A stretch of 35,108 nt of DNA, taken from assembly GCA_019308995.1 (NCBI GenBank), contig JAFDHD010000022.1:1-35108 (forward strand), given 5' to 3'. Within the stretch, counting starts at the first letter, position 1; each line of letters starts with the position of its first letter. Positions 27,189 to 35,108 of this stretch are shown piece after piece. Under the pieces are notes generated by a model. It was not told where the DNA came from and made no database searches. It saw only the letters and a program-made list of their open reading frames with translations. The DNA is from Deltaproteobacteria bacterium (GTDB taxonomy: Bacteria; Desulfobacterota; Desulfarculia; Adiutricales; JAFDHD01). The position numbers were made by a program, and so were the translations under genes.

Positions 27189-30100
27189 TTATCGAGCGAA
27201 AGGCCCTTTGATCCCCGTTAATAACCGTTTGGTAAGCCCCGGTCTGGCCCTTTGCGGAGACTTCTTCCTGAGAGGAGCCTCTGGTTGTTCCTCCTTTATT
27301 TCCAGTTCCGGCGCACCTTGCCATCTCCGGGCCAGATACTGAAGGCTGATTTTTATTCCTTCTGGCCGAAGCCAACCGTATCCGGCCCAGCCCAGTATGT
27401 CCAGCAGGCCCTGGAAATCATCGTCGCTCCAGGCTGTTGTTCCCTGGCGGGTCAGTCTCCGGGTGACCTCTTCATCTGAGACCTCGCCCTCCCGCGGCAG
27501 CTCCGCGGCGTAAGGTATGTGCATTGTCAGAAAAGTCTCGAGATAAGACAGGGCCCCCTCATCCCAAACGCTAAGTTCGCGGCCTTCCAGCTCCCAGTCC
27601 AGGAGCCATATCTTCAGAATATTGTCTTCGCCTCCTGAGACGATGTACCGGCCGTCATGGCTCAGGGAAGCTGAACTCACACTGGCCGTGTGTCCTTCAA
27701 AGGTGCGCAGGCAGCGGCCGGTGGTCACCTCCCAGATTTTAAGGGTGTTGTCAGAACTTCCGGATAAGATGTATCGCTCATCCTGACTGAGGCAGATCGT
27801 GTTCACCGCCTGGGTGTGACCCTTAAAGGTGCGGATGCACTCCCCGGCGGTGATGTCCCACATTTTTAGGGTGGTATCCCCGCTGCCAGAAAAGGCGTAA
27901 CGGTAGTCATGGTTCAAGGCGACCGCATATACAACGCCCTCATGGCCTTCCAGGGTGCACAGACAGCGGCCGGCGGCGAGGTCCCAGAGCTTGAGAACGT
28001 TTTCCTCAAGGGTATGATCACCGCTTCCTGAGAGGACATATTGGTCGTCCAGGCCGAAGCGAATGGAATTGATCGCACACCTATGACCTTCCAGGGTGCG
28101 CAGGCAGCGACCGGTGGCGAGGTCCCAGACTTTGACCGTGCGGTCTTCGCTGCCCGACAAGCCCAGCAGGCCGTCCTGGCTCAAACAGACCGCATTGACA
28201 CTGGCTTCATGCCCTTCCAGCGTCAGCAGACAGGAAGCCGTGCCAGTATCCCAGAGTTTCAGAGTCTGATCAGCGCCGCCTGAAAAGGCATGTGCGTTGT
28301 CCCGGCTGAGGCAGACAGCCAGGACCCCGCCTTTATGGCCTTCAAACGTCCGCTGGCAACGTTTACTAAACAGATCCCACAATTTCAGAGCGCCATCTGC
28401 CCCGCCAGACAGGGCTAACTTACCATTCTGACTCGTAACAACTGAACGTATCCAGGACTCATGACCTTCAAGGGAGGCCTCTTCCCATCCTCCGGCTAAG
28501 GCCTGATGAGGCAGCCGGGCATACAGGTCCGTCCAGGCCTTCATCGCTTCGGCTCTGCGGGCGTATCCTTTCTGGGCTCGGGCTTCTCGTATCTCAGCCG
28601 CGGCCCTGGGAAGGTCTTCCTGCTCGAGGTATTTCTGAGCCCGGTCCAGGTGATTCTCGTAGTTAATCTCAGCGGTCAAAACCGCCTCACTCGTTAGTAT
28701 CTTGGAGAGGATCAGGGGTGAGGGTTCAGGTCTGGCGCTGCAGCTGGTCCTCCAGTAATTGATTGCGCCGCTGACATCTCCTGACAGGGCATACTCCCCG
28801 TTCCGGCTCACGCTGATAGAGAGAACCCATGACTTGTGCCCCAGGAAGGTGCGCCAGCAGCGTCCGGTGTCAAGCTCCCATAACCTGACCGTATTATCAA
28901 AGCCGCCCGAGACGGCGTGCCGACCCTCCGGGGTCATGCTGACCGAGGTTACCTCGTCACTATGTCCGGTAAAGGTCCGCACCAGACGAGCGCTAGCGGT
29001 CTCCCAGAGTTTGAGGGTGTTATCCGCGCTCCCCGACAGGACGTATTTCCCATCGTCGCTCAAAGCGATGGATGTCACCGGCCCCTCATGTCCCTCGAAG
29101 GTGCGCAGACAGCGTCCGGTGTCGCTTTCCCACAGCCTGATTGTCTTATCGCCGCTTCCGGACAAAACATGCCGCCTGTCATTGATCAGATCAATGGAGG
29201 TCACCGACCTCCGGTGTCCTTGAAGGTTGCGAATTAAACGGCCCGTTTCAACCTCCCAGAGCTTGACGATTCCTTCATCGCCGCCTGAAAACGCCAGTCG
29301 GCCGCTTCCATCTAGGCAAACCGCGTTCACACTGGCTTCATGCCCTTCAAAGATGCGCAGGCAGAGGCCTGAAGAGACCTCCCAGAGCCTGACGGAAAAG
29401 TCGCTGCGGGTGTAGTCCCCGCTCCCGGACAAGGCATAATGCCGGTCCCGGCTGAAACAGACGGCATTCACCGCGCCTTCGCTCCCTTCAAAGGTTCTAA
29501 CGCAGCGGCCTGTTTCAACCTCCCAGAGCCTGAGTGTCCTGTCGTCGCTTCCGGACAGCGCCGACAATCCGTCCCGGCTTAGATACACGGAGTTCACATT
29601 GGCGGTGTGGCCCTCAAAGGTACGTAAAAGCTTTCGAGAACCGGGGAGGCACGCCTGGGCGTACTCCATGGCCGGTTTCAGCTCCTTAAGCCGGGCATCC
29701 GACTCGGGAATGCTCTCAAAAATCTTGAGCGCCTCGCTGCAATCGTCGCTCTCCAGGTGCACCAACCCCAAGAGGTAGTGATTGATCCAATCTTCGGGGT
29801 GGGAACGAAGCACTTCCTCCATCTGCTTGGCCAGGGTTTCGTCGGTCATCCTGGCAGAGCGCCAGAGAACCAGACCGTGGCTGTAAGTTGATTCAGGATG
29901 ATGCGGCTGACTCTTAAGGGACTCCTCCCAGAGCCTCTCCGCCTCCTCCTTCCGCCCGAGGTCCATTAACGAGATGGCCATATTGTTCAGGTTGTCCGCG
30001 ACCGACCCGCCTGCTTTTGGTTCCGGGCGGGTATAGGTTTCCCGGGTAACCTTTTCATAGATCTCCACGAGCCTGTGAGCGACTGCCCGCATGCTCGGAG

Positions 30101-31340
30101 GACGGTTGTCAGGGTTATGTATTAAGCAGGAGCGGAGCAGATTGGCCAGGGGATCGGGCATCCTCGGGATATAGGTCTGATCCGGCCCTGACTTGACATA
30201 CTCTTCCAAGACCTCCGGGACGACCGTGCCGGATTGCCAGGACCTTCCCCCTTTAAAGATTTCCACCATTGATACCGCCCAGCTCCACAGGTCAATCTTT
30301 CGAGTCAGGAGGCCGCCTGTGGATTGCTCGGGCGCGAAGTAGGCCGGGGTTCCGATGACCAGGCCTTCGGCCGCACCGTTCGGCTCACCCGATGATTCTT
30401 CCATCTCCTCGGCCTGGCTCCTGGGTATAGCCAGGCCGAAGTCGGTCACCTTGGCGATGCCAGTCTGTGTCATCATGACATTGGCCGGCTTAACGTCCTG
30501 GTGGATCAACCCCTGTTTGTGGGCATAATCCAGGCCCCAGGCGAACTGAATGGCTATATCCAGGATACGTTCCAGTACCTGCTCCGGATCTCCCTGATAG
30601 AGCCGGGGCGTGTGATCGTCTTCAGGCTTGAGCCAGGATTGAAGGCTTCCGCCGTTTACATATTCGGCAAAAATCAGCGGGAGTTTATGAATGCGGCGGA
30701 CATAATAGCAACTCACAATATGAGGGTGCAGACCTAGGTTAACCCAGGTTTCAGCCTCACGCTCGAAATTATCCACGCCGCCGGCCGCACGAATGACCTC
30801 GGTCTTGGGCACTTTCACCGCCAGGTTCAGGTTCCAGCCGCGGTGATGGACCCTGAACACCTTGCCCATACCGCCTTCCCCCAAAAAACCGGTCACCTTA
30901 TAGAGGTCCATGATGACGTCCCCGACGGCCCATGCCGGACCCGGCCTTGCCTCGCTCTCATCATCAGGGGAGGCCTCTCCGGGCAGCTCCTCCTCAAGAC
31001 CTTCTTCGAGGTCAGGGATATCATCCGCGTTGAGAGCCAGGGTTAAGCTAGTCTCTGGCTTTACTTTATCCTGTTCGGATCGAGGGACAGGCTCGATACG
31101 GAATCTTTGACCGCATTTATCACATTTGGCTGTTTTTCCGAGATGTTCCGGTTTGAGGTTGCCATATCTCGCCTGGCAGTGGGGGCAGACCGTTTCGACG
31201 GGCCCTTCCCTCTCCAGGGATTGAGCTTCGACGCGAAAAGAAGAGCCGCATTTCGGACACTTCACCGTTTTGCCAACCAGACCAGATGAAATATCATTAA
31301 AAAAGGCGCCGCAGTGTTGGCAGGTGGTCGTGATCGGCAA
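27189..31340 (-). CDS. Giant Ser/Thr protein kinase with zinc ribbons, TPR-like repeats and two WD40 propellers
   Basis: This 1383-residue protein has, in order: two MJ0042-type zinc ribbons (Cys7/10/28/31 and Cys52/55/73/76), an acidic linker, a eukaryote-like kinase domain (about 145-430), TPR-like helices (about 445-560), a seven-blade WD40 propeller (572-866), a helical linker (about 870-955), a second seven-blade propeller (956-1247) and a C-terminal globular domain with a basic tail. Kinase motifs are GEGGMG (154-159), Lys176, HQDVKPAN (280-287), DFG (300-302) and APE (336-338). The HRD arginine is Gln281, so activation is probably not controlled by activation-loop phosphorylation in the usual way. 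There is no transmembrane helix. The start is a TTG after GAGGG. The propellers would act as partner-binding platforms. The substrate is unknown. Confidence 0.9.
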   Translation of the reverse strand: MPITTTCQHCGAFFNDISSGLVGKTVKCPKCGSSFRVEAQSLEREGPVETVCPHCQARYGNLKPEHLGKTAKCDKCGQRFRIEPVPRSEQDKVKPETSLTLALNADDIPDLEEGLEEELPGEASPDDESEARPGPAWAVGDVIMDLYKVTGFLGEGGMGKVFRVHHRGWNLNLAVKVPKTEVIRAAGGVDNFEREAETWVNLGLHPHIVSCYYVRRIHKLPLIFAEYVNGGSLQSWLKPEDDHTPRLYQGDPEQVLERILDIAIQFAWGLDYAHKQGLIHQDVKPANVMMTQTGIAKVTDFGLAIPRSQAEEMEESSGEPNGAAEGLVIGTPAYFAPEQSTGGLLTRKIDLWSWAVSMVEIFKGGRSWQSGTVVPEVLEEYVKSGPDQTYIPRMPDPLANLLRSCLIHNPDNRPPSMRAVAHRLVEIYEKVTRETYTRPEPKAGGSVADNLNNMAISLMDLGRKEEAERLWEESLKSQPHHPESTYSHGLVLWRSARMTDETLAKQMEEVLRSHPEDWINHYLLGLVHLESDDCSEALKIFESIPESDARLKELKPAMEYAQACLPGSRKLLRTFEGHTANVNSVYLSRDGLSALSGSDDRTLRLWEVETGRCVRTFEGSEGAVNAVCFSRDRHYALSGSGDYTRSDFSVRLWEVSSGLCLRIFEGHEASVNAVCLDGSGRLAFSGGDEGIVKLWEVETGRLIRNLQGHRRSVTSIDLINDRRHVLSGSGDKTIRLWESDTGRCLRTFEGHEGPVTSIALSDDGKYVLSGSADNTLKLWETASARLVRTFTGHSDEVTSVSMTPEGRHAVSGGFDNTVRLWELDTGRCWRTFLGHKSWVLSISVSRNGEYALSGDVSGAINYWRTSCSARPEPSPLILSKILTSEAVLTAEINYENHLDRAQKYLEQEDLPRAAAEIREARAQKGYARRAEAMKAWTDLYARLPHQALAGGWEEASLEGHESWIRSVVTSQNGKLALSGGADGALKLWDLFSKRCQRTFEGHKGGVLAVCLSRDNAHAFSGGADQTLKLWDTGTASCLLTLEGHEASVNAVCLSQDGLLGLSGSEDRTVKVWDLATGRCLRTLEGHRCAINSIRFGLDDQYVLSGSGDHTLEENVLKLWDLAAGRCLCTLEGHEGVVYAVALNHDYRYAFSGSGDTTLKMWDITAGECIRTFKGHTQAVNTICLSQDERYILSGSSDNTLKIWEVTTGRCLRTFEGHTASVSSASLSHDGRYIVSGGEDNILKIWLLDWELEGRELSVWDEGALSYLETFLTMHIPYAAELPREGEVSDEEVTRRLTRQGTTAWSDDDFQGLLDILGWAGYGWLRPEGIKISLQYLARRWQGAPELEIKEEQPEAPLRKKSPQRARPGLTKRLLTGIKGPFAR
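27600..28475 (-). repeat. Second WD40 repeat block (seven repeats)
   Basis: Seven tandem units of about 126 bases encode residues 956-1247 of the kinase, each with the pattern GH-x-V-x-A/S-V ... SGG/SGS-D-T-LKLWD ... GRCLRTLEGH. One unit carries a short insertion (HTLEENV, near 1109-1115). Seven blades are enough to close one propeller. The DNA copies are clearly related but not identical, so the array is likely old, though still a possible site of recombination or assembly error. Confidence 0.85.
28743..29627 (-). repeat. First WD40 repeat block (seven repeats)
   Basis: Seven tandem units encode residues 572-866, with LRLWEVETGRC-type ends and FEGH starts. The second unit has an insertion (YTRSDFS, near 643-649) and the seventh is the most degenerate (INYWRTSC). 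A helical linker of about 90 residues separates this propeller from the second one, indicating two distinct seven-blade domains and not one continuous array. Confidence 0.85.
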
Positions 31341-31476
31341 TACAGGTCCCTCTTAACGCTTCTTCTTTATTTCAGCTTACTTTTCCGGAAAAAAAAGAGG
31401 CTTTTTAAGTCTCGATCCCAGGATTAAATCCAGAAACGATGGGAAAGGTCATCTAAAGGGCTTCATGAGTGCGCCC

Positions 31477-31501
31477 CCTGACAACTAAGGCGGCTGTCAG
31501 G
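31477..31501. terminator. Hairpin beyond the end of the FHA kinase gene
   Basis: CCTGACA and TGTCAGG form a perfect 7-base stem with an 11-base loop, starting 12 bases past the FHA-kinase stop codon. Read on the plus strand it is closely followed by TTTTTT, the canonical order for a terminator, but no plus-strand gene runs into it. On the minus strand there is no T-run after the stem. Its role as 3' end of the kinase transcript is therefore uncertain. Confidence 0.35.
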
Positions 31502-31512
31502 CGATTTTTTCC

Positions 31513-33039
31513 TCAGATCACGCCTTCCAGGGCCTGTTTGAATTCAAGCGCTGACTTATAAGTGATGGTCGGCTGATCAACCAGGGCCATGTCAATCACC
31601 CCGGCCACTTTTTCCGGAATCGAAGAATCCCGTTCGCGAATCGGCACCGCCTGGGTCTGCAGTACAGTGCGCCAGGGGTCTTCACCCTTCTTGAAATTGC
31701 GTGCGAACGTGCCGGTGAGCAGGTTATACAGCGTGGCCGCCGCGGCCCAGACGTCAACGTCTGGTTTGGCGTATTTAAAATTTATGACCTGCTGTCTTGG
31801 CATGTACACCGGGGTGCCGCCAACAGTCCCGGTCCTGGTCTGTCCGCTCAAACCGGCGGTGTCAAACGCCTTACCCACACCCACATCAGCAATTTTTACC
31901 AGACGGTTCTTTCCCGAACCAGGGAGGAAAAGGTTGGCCGGTTTGATGTCTCGATGAACCAGGCCCTTTACCTGCTCCGTTCGCCCGTCTGAAAGCTTGA
32001 TATCGGATATTTCGACCGTATGGATATACTCCAGGCCGTCGAGAACCTGGAGAATGATTTCCATGGCTTCATCCAGAGACAGCTTGCCGCCCTTTTTTTC
32101 TCTCAGTTTGTCCACACTGCCGCCTTCACAGTATTCCAGGGTAAAAAAGAAGATGCCGCCGAAATCACCGGAACCGATTAACTGGACGACATGAGGATGG
32201 TTGAGGGCCTTGGTGATTTCTACCTCCCGTAAAAACCTCTGCCTGGAGGCATCATCCACAGCGACCTCTGGCAGCATCATCTTCACAGCGACCTCCTGAC
32301 CGTTCTCTCTGTGACGAGCCAGGAAAACGACACTGAATGTGCCTTGACCGAGTTCCTTGACAATTTCATATCCCTGAAGGGCCTGGAGCTGCTCATCGCC
32401 CTGGCTGGCCTTGGTGACCAGCATCTCAACGATTTCAGAAGGTTTGGATTTACAGGCGCGACAGATGTAAGCCCCCTGGCGGTGTTCACCCACTTCCTTG
32501 GACACATCCCGGCCACACAAGGCGCAAGCCTTTGCCTGGGAATCAGGGGGAGGGCCTGTCCTGACCTTGTCCTCCTTCTGGCGACAGGATTCACAGCGGT
32601 AAGTATCTCCTTTGAGGCGCAGCTCCTCTTTCCTGTCTTCAGGGATCTCCTTCCCGCAGTCGGTGCAGACGGCCGCAGCATGAATTCCCACCCTGAAAAC
32701 CATACTCCCCAGCTTAATCTCGTCGCCGTCTTTGAGGTCATATTCTGGAAAGGCCTTCTGGTCAATCTCCTGAGGTTTTTGGTCTTTTTTACGCTGCCCA
32801 ATTTTCCGCCCGTTTACAAAAGTGCCATTTAAGCTTCCAAGATCACGCACCCGAACGTCAGGGGGGTTGATGTCCAGAAGGCAGTGATGTCGTGAGATAG
32901 ATTGAAGATCCTTGTCATCAGGCAGCCGGATGTTGCAATCCGTGCCGCGCCCGATAATGGCGGTGATGCACTCGTTAAAAGTGAAGACTTTTCCCTTGAG
33001 CTTGCCTTGACTGACAGTAAGACTGACTTTGGCCGGCAT
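31513..33039 (-). CDS. FHA-domain Ser/Thr protein kinase with two zinc ribbons
   Basis: The 508-residue protein starts with an FHA phosphothreonine-binding domain (GRGTDCNIRL at 30-39, ISRHH at 48-52, LGSLNGTFVNG at 67-77). Two four-cysteine zinc modules follow (Cys125/128/149/152 and Cys172/175/193/196), then a kinase domain (about 224-505). Kinase motifs: GQGTFS loop (231-236), Lys253 and HRDIKPAN (362-369). The DFG motif is ADVG (Asp385-Val-Gly) and APE is replaced by PRQ, with an insertion of about 18 residues between helix E and the catalytic loop. The catalytic residues remain, so activity is plausible. AGGAAG precedes the ATG. It lies between the WD40 kinase and the YcaO gene on the same strand, with gaps of 172 and 225 bases. 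The FHA domain could dock on a phosphorylated partner such as the WD40 kinase, which is an inference. Confidence 0.9.
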   Translation of the reverse strand: MPAKVSLTVSQGKLKGKVFTFNECITAIIGRGTDCNIRLPDDKDLQSISRHHCLLDINPPDVRVRDLGSLNGTFVNGRKIGQRKKDQKPQEIDQKAFPEYDLKDGDEIKLGSMVFRVGIHAAAVCTDCGKEIPEDRKEELRLKGDTYRCESCRQKEDKVRTGPPPDSQAKACALCGRDVSKEVGEHRQGAYICRACKSKPSEIVEMLVTKASQGDEQLQALQGYEIVKELGQGTFSVVFLARHRENGQEVAVKMMLPEVAVDDASRQRFLREVEITKALNHPHVVQLIGSGDFGGIFFFTLEYCEGGSVDKLREKKGGKLSLDEAMEIILQVLDGLEYIHTVEISDIKLSDGRTEQVKGLVHRDIKPANLFLPGSGKNRLVKIADVGVGKAFDTAGLSGQTRTGTVGGTPVYMPRQQVINFKYAKPDVDVWAAAATLYNLLTGTFARNFKKGEDPWRTVLQTQAVPIRERDSSIPEKVAGVIDMALVDQPTITYKSALEFKQALEGVI

Positions 33040-33133
33040 GAAATCTTCCTACCAGGCTACTGGTGTCCCATGTCCTTTAGGAAGCTGATCCAACTTGTTA
33101 CAGCGTGGCAGAGGATAAACATTCTCGAGTCCT

Positions 33134-33162
33134 ATTATGGTCTAGTTGGTTCAACATAACAA
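33134..33162 (-). promoter_or_regulatory. Candidate promoter for the FHA kinase
   Basis: On the minus strand TTGTTA (33162-33157, 4 of 6 matches) and CATAAT (33139-33134, 5 of 6) are separated by 17 bases, about 95 bases upstream of the kinase start. If real, it would let the kinase be expressed independently of the YcaO gene upstream. Confidence 0.4.
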
Positions 33163-33264
33163 TAAAAAAATAAAAAATGAGAGGCTAGCCGGGTATTTAC
33201 AGGCTGATAACTTCTGTTTCTTGGCAAACTTTCTTAAAAAACGATCTCCTGCCAACGGGTATGG

Positions 33265-34986
33265 TCAGGTCAGTTTGGACAGGTTCTCTCGCACCCAGTC
33301 CAGGGTGGGATCGAGTTCAAGGGCGGTCTGGTAATACCGGACCGCGTCGCTGATCCGGCCCAGTTCCCGGTAATTGGAGCCGATATTGGCATGATCAATG
33401 CCAGAAGCGGGGTCAATCTTGAGGACCTTCTTGAAACATTCAATGGACTTTTCATGCTGTTTGGTTTTGAAAAAGCAGAAGCCCAGTAAATTGAAGGTGT
33501 CTCGCCGCTCGTCATCCAGAGCGGCCGAACGTTCGAGATAGCCGATGGCCTGGCTGTATTCTTCCATTTCTTTATACGCCAGGCCGAGGTAGGTCAGGAC
33601 GCCTGGCACATCCTGGTCGAGCGGCCCCATCTCGAGGGCCTTCTTTAAAAAGCCAGCCGCTTCAAGCGAACGCCCCTGGTTCAGCAAAGCCTGTCCCATA
33701 AAGAAATCCAGAAAGTAGCTCTCCGGGCAAAGCCCGCGGATTCGATTCAGACCGGCGGTGACCCGGTCAAAATCTTCCTGCCTTGCTATGATCTTGGCGG
33801 CAAAGAAAGGGACACTCGCAGCCTGGGCCCGTTCTCGGAAATGGGCGCCCGGAACGATGGTATAGACGGCCGGGATATCGAGGTCTGGATGGGTGATGTT
33901 CATGGCATAGGCCTCATAACCTCGCTCGGCCAAGACAGCCACAATCCGCTCCACCTCGACCTTGATGTTGTTATGGCTGACGTCAGGCAGGTCGCTCATG
34001 GGAACGCTCGGCCCGGAGCGTGTTACATACTCCGCCTGAGCCGGGTCGGTGTACTTTGGCAGACCGCTGGCCACAAAAGTCGAGCCCGTGTTGAAGTCCC
34101 CGGCCAGTTGCGCCACCTCGGTCAGGGTCCGAATAAAGGCCTTTTCCGGGTCAGGGGCGGTGCCAGCCGTGTAAACGATCTCAGAAAGAAGGGGAAAGGT
34201 CCCCGGGTCGTAAGCCAGCGCCCCGACTGAAGGCAGACCCATATCCAGAGTGAAGTCCTTGACAAAGAGCTTGATGCCTTGCCTTTCAAACTTTCGGACC
34301 AGCTCCCTGGCAATGGGACCTTTGAGTGAAGTCGTGTCAATGGAAGGCAGGGCCAGCCTGTCCCGGCAGATCAGGGCGGAAACATGCCGCTCCACAACCT
34401 CGCACAGACCCTGCATCAGGGCCTCCTCCATGCTGTTGCCTGCGGCCGGGCCGTTGAATTCATTAATCTCGTAAAACCAGTTGAACGGGATCAGGTATGC
34501 TCGCCCTTGCGTCAGGTTGAAGGCCGGTGTCCAGGAAAGTTTCAAGTCAGAGACAGCCTGCCGTGCACGATCCAGGTCCTGCGGGTCATGATGCACCGAG
34601 GCGGCCAGGTGCTCAAAAGGCAAGGCCTGACCCTGAAGCTCATCATAGGTGGCAGTAATAAAAGGCTCGTGACGCCAAAAGTGAAAGAAGCTGAAACGTT
34701 CAATCAGTTCCATCACAGCCGAAGCCTCGGCCTGGGCCGGTGTCGCTCCTTTGCCCATCTGCTTTTTGGTGGGCATAACCTCGAGGGCGTCAGACCCCAC
34801 GGTACTGAGATAGATCGGGATATCCAGGCGCCGATTATCAATCCGTTCCGTCTTTTTGAGGATGCTGATACGGGCTTTGGTCAATTTTTTCCTGACCAAG
34901 GCTATGGTCTCTTCAGGAGAAAAGACCTTATCCTGATCGAGCGTGTAAGTCTTGAAGCAATCTTTCAGTTCAATTTTCGCGGACAT
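33265..34986 (-). CDS. YcaO-domain protein fused to TPR repeats
   Basis: The 573-residue protein has an N-terminal YcaO domain (about 1-400). The glutamates typical of its ATP/Mg site are visible in EASAVMELIERF (around 87-97) and EEALMQGLCEVVER (around 187-200). C-terminal TPR repeats follow (about 410-570), for example YLGLAYKEMEEYSQAIGYLE and ANIGSNYRELGRISDAVRYY. YcaO enzymes use ATP to activate peptide amide bonds, giving azolines, thioamides or amidines. No precursor peptide, E1-like partner or TfuA gene is in the window. The usual proline-rich C terminus is replaced by the TPR region. The frame is open to a TTG at 35031, but the ATG at 34986 begins the family-like start (SAKIELKDCFKTYTLDQDK). 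Neither has a clear ribosome site. Confidence 0.85.
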   Translation of the reverse strand: MSAKIELKDCFKTYTLDQDKVFSPEETIALVRKKLTKARISILKKTERIDNRRLDIPIYLSTVGSDALEVMPTKKQMGKGATPAQAEASAVMELIERFSFFHFWRHEPFITATYDELQGQALPFEHLAASVHHDPQDLDRARQAVSDLKLSWTPAFNLTQGRAYLIPFNWFYEINEFNGPAAGNSMEEALMQGLCEVVERHVSALICRDRLALPSIDTTSLKGPIARELVRKFERQGIKLFVKDFTLDMGLPSVGALAYDPGTFPLLSEIVYTAGTAPDPEKAFIRTLTEVAQLAGDFNTGSTFVASGLPKYTDPAQAEYVTRSGPSVPMSDLPDVSHNNIKVEVERIVAVLAERGYEAYAMNITHPDLDIPAVYTIVPGAHFRERAQAASVPFFAAKIIARQEDFDRVTAGLNRIRGLCPESYFLDFFMGQALLNQGRSLEAAGFLKKALEMGPLDQDVPGVLTYLGLAYKEMEEYSQAIGYLERSAALDDERRDTFNLLGFCFFKTKQHEKSIECFKKVLKIDPASGIDHANIGSNYRELGRISDAVRYYQTALELDPTLDWVRENLSKLT

Positions 34987-35084
34987 AATGACAGCCAGAC
35001 CCTGGGTGTGTTTTTGAGGCAGTATATCCAAGATTTTAGGAAAAACAAGAGAGGGAGAATAAAAGAAGGGAGTTTTTCAGGGGG

Positions 35085-35108
35085 AACCCTTTTTTGAAAA
35101 AAAGGGTT
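35085..35108. terminator. Perfect hairpin at the right window edge, probably a bidirectional terminator
   Basis: AACCCTTTTTT and AAAAAAGGGTT form a perfect 11-base stem with a GA loop. GGGG precedes it, and the arm probably extends beyond the window. The T-run in one arm and A-run in the other make it work on either strand. It lies upstream of the YcaO gene, so it would end a minus-strand transcript entering from the right and leave the YcaO gene to its own promoter. Confidence 0.6.

Follow-up and report, generated by a model that had tools for sequence, protein, structure and literature searches.

A YcaO-TPR protein of sulfite-respiring Desulfobacterota proposed to modify the backbone of DsrC

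The window analysed here is a whole contig of 35108 bases (C22) from a Desulfobacterota genome of 228 contigs (G000), and the gene under study, at its right-hand end, encodes a protein with a YcaO domain followed by a C-terminal module of TPRs (YcaO-TPR). YcaO-TPR is strongly indicated to belong to dissimilatory sulfite reduction (the Dsr pathway), and its probable substrate is DsrC, the small sulfur-carrier protein of sulfite respiration whose flexible C-terminal arm contains Cys93 and Cys104. We lean towards the view that YcaO-TPR uses ATP and sulfide to modify the DsrC backbone enzymatically, forming a thioamide at Gly89, where the residue, the thioamide chemistry and sulfide as the sulfur source are what we infer. 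No paper that pairs YcaO with DsrC, or dissimilatory sulfite reductase with a thioamide, was found in the literature searched.

Properties of the YcaO-TPR protein

The YcaO domain was matched by PF02624 at 264 bits against a cut-off of 25.7, which places the protein in the YcaO superfamily, and the ATP-site residues G183, N184, E188, Q192, E196, E199 and R200 were invariant in 18 orthologues. The best match among the NCBIfam models was TIGR03266, the family for thioamidation of the McrA glycine, at 132.5 bits (cut-off 365), and the model for the E. coli YcaO that acts on uL16 (NF040716) gave 72 bits (cut-off 700). As both scores lie below the curated cut-offs the protein was assigned to neither named family. 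An AlphaFold model built from 18 sequences was confident (pLDDT 89.9) and its top match in the PDB by Foldseek was MJ1094 (6PE3/6PEU), which is also the top YcaO match by sequence profile and comes from a methanogen, being of the type that thioamidates McrA. YcaO-TPR is therefore compared below with the McrA- and uL16-type YcaO enzymes, which it is proposed to resemble in its mode of action.

The enzyme of E. coli is the strongest precedent for the function of YcaO-TPR. It has a C-terminal TPR domain and no TfuA, and in the presence of ATP, Mg and Na2S it thioamidates uL16 in the folded state; uL16 is counted as the second protein thioamidated by a YcaO after methyl-coenzyme M reductase (MCR/McrA), and only these two are known (PMC13063428). 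YcaO-TPR shares with E. coli YcaO (4Q84-4Q86) both the domain order and the absence of TfuA, and it too is proposed to use ATP and sulfide on a single folded housekeeping protein. This precedent supports the original prediction of a stand-alone YcaO that acts on a protein backbone, with fused TPRs in place of a partner. YcaO-TPR differs from the E. coli enzyme in being less acidic, with an isoelectric point (pI) of 4.7-6.1 in the 18 orthologues compared to 4.4, and in having a phylogenetic profile and a gene neighbourhood that point to DsrC, not uL16. The dsr-restricted distribution and the milder pI make uL16 a less likely substrate.

The methanogen McrA-glycine enzyme provides the nearest solved fold, and the proposed target is in both cases a glycine beside an active site. 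In contrast to that enzyme, YcaO-TPR has a fused TPR module, its relatives lack TfuA, and its setting is bacterial sulfite respiration instead of methanogenesis. TfuA (PF07812) was found in none of 98 related genomes, with a positive control in Methanosarcina, and was rejected as a partner. No precursor peptide, E1/ThiF-like protein or TfuA was recognised in 20 YcaO-TPR neighbourhoods, in which short open reading frames were not systematically scored. Although YcaO-TPR shares YcaO chemistry with the cyclodehydratases of ribosomally synthesised and post-translationally modified peptides (RiPPs; TOMM/SagD), it scores 120 bits against the SagD family cut-off of 219, and a RiPP cluster is disfavoured, neither partner nor precursor having been recognised in the neighbourhoods read. 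The window genome contains a second YcaO of 485 aa that is SagD-like (G000:C72, L004 6606-8063). Its neighbours (L004 2340-9723) include a short-chain dehydrogenase gene and three genes for radical SAM proteins of the B12-binding type, and this looks like a separate biosynthetic cluster.

Distribution and gene neighbourhood

The distribution of YcaO-TPR was surveyed across one phylum, using 394 genomes that are at least 95% complete and a strict threshold for dsrA. YcaO-TPR was present in 190 genomes, 186 of which also had dsrA; four had YcaO-TPR only, 41 dsrA only and 163 neither (Fisher p = 6e-65, uncorrected for relatedness). All four of the genomes with YcaO-TPR only carry DsrC. Two of them share a family with G246 and G321, in which dsrA is split into two weaker matches, and a threshold effect is the likely reason for the missing dsrA in that family. 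Full-length orthologues were found in 33 of the 98 relatives, of which 30 have dsrA and the remaining three are incomplete genomes (54-82%). The protein of the window belongs to this YcaO-TPR group of sulfite-respiring Desulfobacterota, giving a full-length match in a genome that carries dsrA, dsrC and a dsrMK-type cluster.

Some dsr genomes without YcaO-TPR (G081, G132, G104, G206) encode a protein made up of TPRs only, about 590-620 aa long, the last 150 residues of which match the YcaO-TPR repeat module with E of about 1e-50; in G081 (L095 6185-7969) it sits just upstream of dsrAB. Several genomes without YcaO-TPR (G081, G135, G156, G183, G236) also gave shorter dsrA matches, in which some 387-397 positions of the profile were covered and a single stop codon was flagged close to the end, as though the C-terminus of DsrA were shortened.

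The dsr gene found next to YcaO-TPR is dsrC. In 18 genomes of family f5 it is the adjacent upstream gene on the same strand, with gaps of 130-189 bases and, in several genomes, the order valS-dsrC-ycaO-eno. In eight further families (G090, G167, G147, G124, G223, G240, G187 and G371) it is the adjacent downstream gene on the same strand with gaps of 103-336 bases, and in a ninth (G270) it lies downstream with 1.1 kb between. On the DsrC tree several of the families with downstream dsrC lie near one another, and the number of independent arrangements is thus at least two rather than nine. In G001, which is of the same genus as the window genome, the side corresponding to the right of position 35108 contains nfo (AP endonuclease) and a dgt-like gene, with nfo just upstream of YcaO-TPR; the TfuA, E1-like or precursor gene that the original prediction had proposed to look for on this side was not recognised there, and the contig of the window itself stops at 35108. 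In f5 nfo lies a few genes upstream of YcaO-TPR, and this position suggests that valS-dsrC was lost from an ancestral gene order in the lineage of the window.

In 14 of 78 loci, and also in G097, the gene directly upstream of YcaO-TPR encodes the sulfur transferase LarE (TIGR00268, 312-318 bits, cut-off 150). The adjacency is real, yet LarE occurs in 80 of the 98 relatives; being so common across the phylum it was rejected as a dedicated partner, and a role for it is no more than a suggestion.

The DsrC arm

The DsrC arm reads GPGKGACKMAGL..KPTGCV in all 61 of the YcaO-TPR genomes compared (GPGKGACKM), and GPAKG[AG]CK[VILM] in 38 of 44 dsrA-containing genomes without it. In this comparison G336 was counted as having YcaO-TPR by virtue of a fragment at a contig end, and G103 and G174, where only a YcaO without TPRs is present, as lacking it. 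These last two genomes belong to family f44 and have the Ala arm, while G131 of the same family has YcaO-TPR and the Gly arm. On a DsrC tree built without the arm, the presence of YcaO-TPR changes seven times and the Gly/Ala site twice, each time on a branch that lacks YcaO; two such events allow no claim of significance, and a phylogenetically corrected test was dropped for want of independent changes. The TPR-less YcaO paralogue of f44, of about 485-510 aa (L329, L330, L338, L339), occurs alone in G103 and G174 and alongside the true YcaO-TPR in G131 and G153.

Published data from D. vulgaris

D. vulgaris has a YcaO-TPR, DVU2210 (PMC7774982), with the same architecture as the protein of the window and 12 of 20 residues identical in the published ATP-motif segment, on which the comparison was made; it is a proposed orthologue. 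A pull-down proteomics study from 2011 lists in its Table 1 the D. vulgaris DsrC peptide LKEVYELFPSGPGK (LK*EVYELFPSGPGK, residues 77-90), labelled with trimethylation plus oxidation in each of the three pull-downs where it appears (PMC3125180). Peptide 77-90 contains no Met, Trp or Cys. The shift for oxidation (+15.9949) and that for exchange of O for S (+15.9772) are 0.018 Da apart, or 11 ppm for this peptide, compared to the Mascot precursor tolerance of 100 ppm used in the study, whose authors note that acetyl and trimethyl groups are not separable by MS1 mass (PMC3125180). The +16 shift of thioamidation is near-isobaric with oxidation and has been misread as such (PMC13063428). A peptide that does contain Met and Trp is listed in the same Table 1 without oxidation (PMC3125180); this table covers modified peptides only and so carries no stoichiometry. 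The trimethyl group of the DsrC peptide was placed at Lys78 (PMC3125180), and the lysine methyltransferase responsible might be another dsr companion.

These observations bear on two alternatives to a modification of DsrC. YcaO-TPR could thioamidate, or modify in some other way, a different component of sulfite or sulfate respiration, for instance DsrAB, the dsrC link reflecting only a shared pathway. The phylogenetic profile tracks dsrA as well as dsrC, the known glycine-thioamidated enzyme McrA is itself an active-site subunit, and DsrA types differ between families with and without YcaO-TPR, with shorter profile coverage in several of the latter; however, the dsr gene that adjoins YcaO-TPR where one does, in two arrangements, is dsrC and the published +16 sits on DsrC, and this alternative is considered unlikely. 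DsrC could instead be the sulfur donor, its persulfide feeding a YcaO-TPR that thioamidates a different protein. Proteins of the DsrC/TusE kind are sulfur carriers, and proteins of primary metabolism are suspected to supply sulfide equivalents to E. coli YcaO (PMC13063428), but a donor role leaves both the change from Gly to Ala in the arm and the +16 on the DsrC peptide unexplained, sulfide is plentiful in sulfate reducers, and E. coli YcaO is active with free sulfide in vitro. We regard a donor role as improbable.

Deletion of DVU2210 alone leaves sulfate-respiring growth similar to that of the wild type and raises the fermentative yield, while its deletion or the S195R substitution confers molybdate resistance in a sat deletion strain (PMC7774982). 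In evolved D. vulgaris cocultures without sulfate, dsrC, sat, apsA/B and DVU2210 were among the parallel-mutated genes with a high G-score (PMC8319347). This physiology suits a modification that tunes the sulfate-reduction machinery and not an essential step. The DVU2210 study treats a molybdate-sensitivity phenotype only and proposes no link to DsrC (PMC7774982). In a third alternative the association with dsrC is a phylogenetic habit, the +16 is plain oxidation, and YcaO-TPR has a different chemistry, such as the ATP-dependent activation of an oxyanion (molybdate or another one) that has been suggested for DVU2210. The molybdate phenotype and the small number of independent Gly/Ala changes both fit with this. 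YcaO enzymes activate amides, though, E. coli carrying DVU2210 is not molybdate-sensitive (PMC7774982), and the adjacency of dsrC would go unexplained. We regard this third alternative as doubtful.

The kinase pair

The features of the locus are given in Table 1. The three consecutive minus-strand open reading frames, and the gaps of 172 and 225 bases between them, were confirmed as originally described. An alternative upstream start of YcaO-TPR, a TTG at 35031, would give 588 aa.

Table 1. Positions of the YcaO-TPR gene, its domains and the neighbouring kinase genes in the window.
Feature	Position	Strand	Remarks
YcaO-TPR gene	33265..34986	-	573 aa from ATG at 34986; proposed DsrC backbone thioamidase
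YcaO catalytic domain	33844..34758	-	ATP-site residues invariant in 18 orthologues
C-terminal helical TPR module	33271..33813	-	proposed to replace a partner protein in binding the folded substrate
FHA - two zinc modules - Ser/Thr kinase, 508 aa	31513..33039	-	first gene of order-specific kinase pair
Two zinc modules - Ser/Thr kinase - TPR - two WD40 sets, 1383 aa	27189..31340	-	second gene of kinase pair
Intergenic stretch between YcaO-TPR and FHA kinase	33040..33264	-	sigma-70-like site at 33162-33134

Domain searches agreed with the zinc, kinase, WD40/TPR and FHA domains first read from the two kinase sequences. The 1383-aa protein has two CxxC/CxxC zinc modules, the first of which matches MJ0042 at 30.4 bits, above the cut-off, followed by a Ser/Thr kinase domain at residues 147-423 with the motifs HQDVKPAN and DFG; it also has a few TPRs and 14 stretches of WD40 repeat arranged in two sets. 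The 508-aa protein consists of an FHA domain (residues 28-111), two zinc modules and a kinase domain (residues 224-505) with the motif HRDIKPAN and DVG where DFG is expected. The catalytic lysine and HxD motifs were found in both. The kinase domains match the TOMM kinase/cyclase model TIGR03903 weakly (81-89 bits, cut-off 706). PADLOC kinase models also match, as expected for generic kinase domains, and a defence role was set aside as no defence context was seen. A promoter had been suggested before the FHA kinase. The sigma-70-like site there is consistent with separate transcription of this gene, but the region as a whole contains promoter-like matches at no more than the chance rate (3 observed, 3.2 expected from shuffles).

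The three genes had been predicted to form one phospho-regulated backbone-modification system, a proposal which the synteny contradicts. Among the YcaO-TPR neighbourhoods of the 20 relatives all three are adjacent only in G000 and G001, of one genus, and in G005, from another family of the same order, where the gaps are only about 60 nt; the other neighbourhoods have YcaO-TPR without the kinases. Conversely, f2 genomes of this order carry the FHA kinase followed by a zinc-kinase-TPR protein, whose complete copies have about 975 aa. The two genes overlap by 4 nt in six of the eight loci first read and in three of four further stretches, and in these genomes neither YcaO-TPR nor dsrA above the cut-off was found. 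The kinase pair is thus its own unit, a separate one beside YcaO-TPR in the genus of the window, and a single three-gene system is very improbable. There is no sign of kinase involvement beyond adjacency in one order, where a lineage-specific regulatory link may nevertheless exist. The f2 genomes G021 and G006 (L232, L233) have kept a two-cysteine DsrC (CKMAGL.KPEGC) despite the absence of dsrA.

Discussion

In the proposed mechanism Gly89, which lies in the DsrC sequence SGPG-K-GAC93, would have its backbone carbonyl phosphorylated by the YcaO domain. Sulfide, either the abundant pool of the cell or a supply from a transferase such as LarE, would then take the place of the oxygen. The product would be a thioamide four residues before the redox-active Cys93. 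Folded DsrC would be docked by the fused TPRs, so that no TfuA or E1-like partner would be needed.

Several observations weigh against this proposal. In the phylum survey 41 genomes with dsrA lack YcaO-TPR, and dsrC is located elsewhere in the window genome and in most loci of the Desulfobacteria. LarE is widespread in the phylum and not specific to YcaO. Six genomes have the Gly arm without YcaO-TPR, some of which may be assembly gaps, and two Gly/Ala changes give the residue correlation little phylogenetic power. The published +16 on DsrC could be ordinary oxidation or hydroxylation, and the normal growth of the DVU2210 deletion on sulfate means that any modification is non-essential. A tethered YcaO-DsrC AlphaFold model, based on an in-frame read-through of the adjacent genes in G187 (pTM 0.72), yielded no usable interface information. 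DsrC structures with the Gly-type arm exist (2V4J, 2XSJ, 3OR1, 3OR2), and to our knowledge no thioamide has been reported in them.

For the wider proposition, that in most sulfate reducers with YcaO-TPR the Gly89 of DsrC carries a thioamide formed from sulfide by YcaO-TPR, so that the state of DsrC could report the sulfide supply, with the kinase pair possibly an added regulator, we find the balance even. If Gly89 of DsrC is thioamidated by YcaO-TPR, DsrC would be the third protein known to be thioamidated by a YcaO. This would explain the role of DVU2210 and its mutation together with dsrC and sat in evolved cocultures, and perhaps also its contribution to molybdate sensitivity. Microbial sulfate respiration and the global sulfur cycle depend centrally on DsrC, and the modification would point to a connection of sulfide, with which the pathway ends, to the chemistry of its sulfur carrier.

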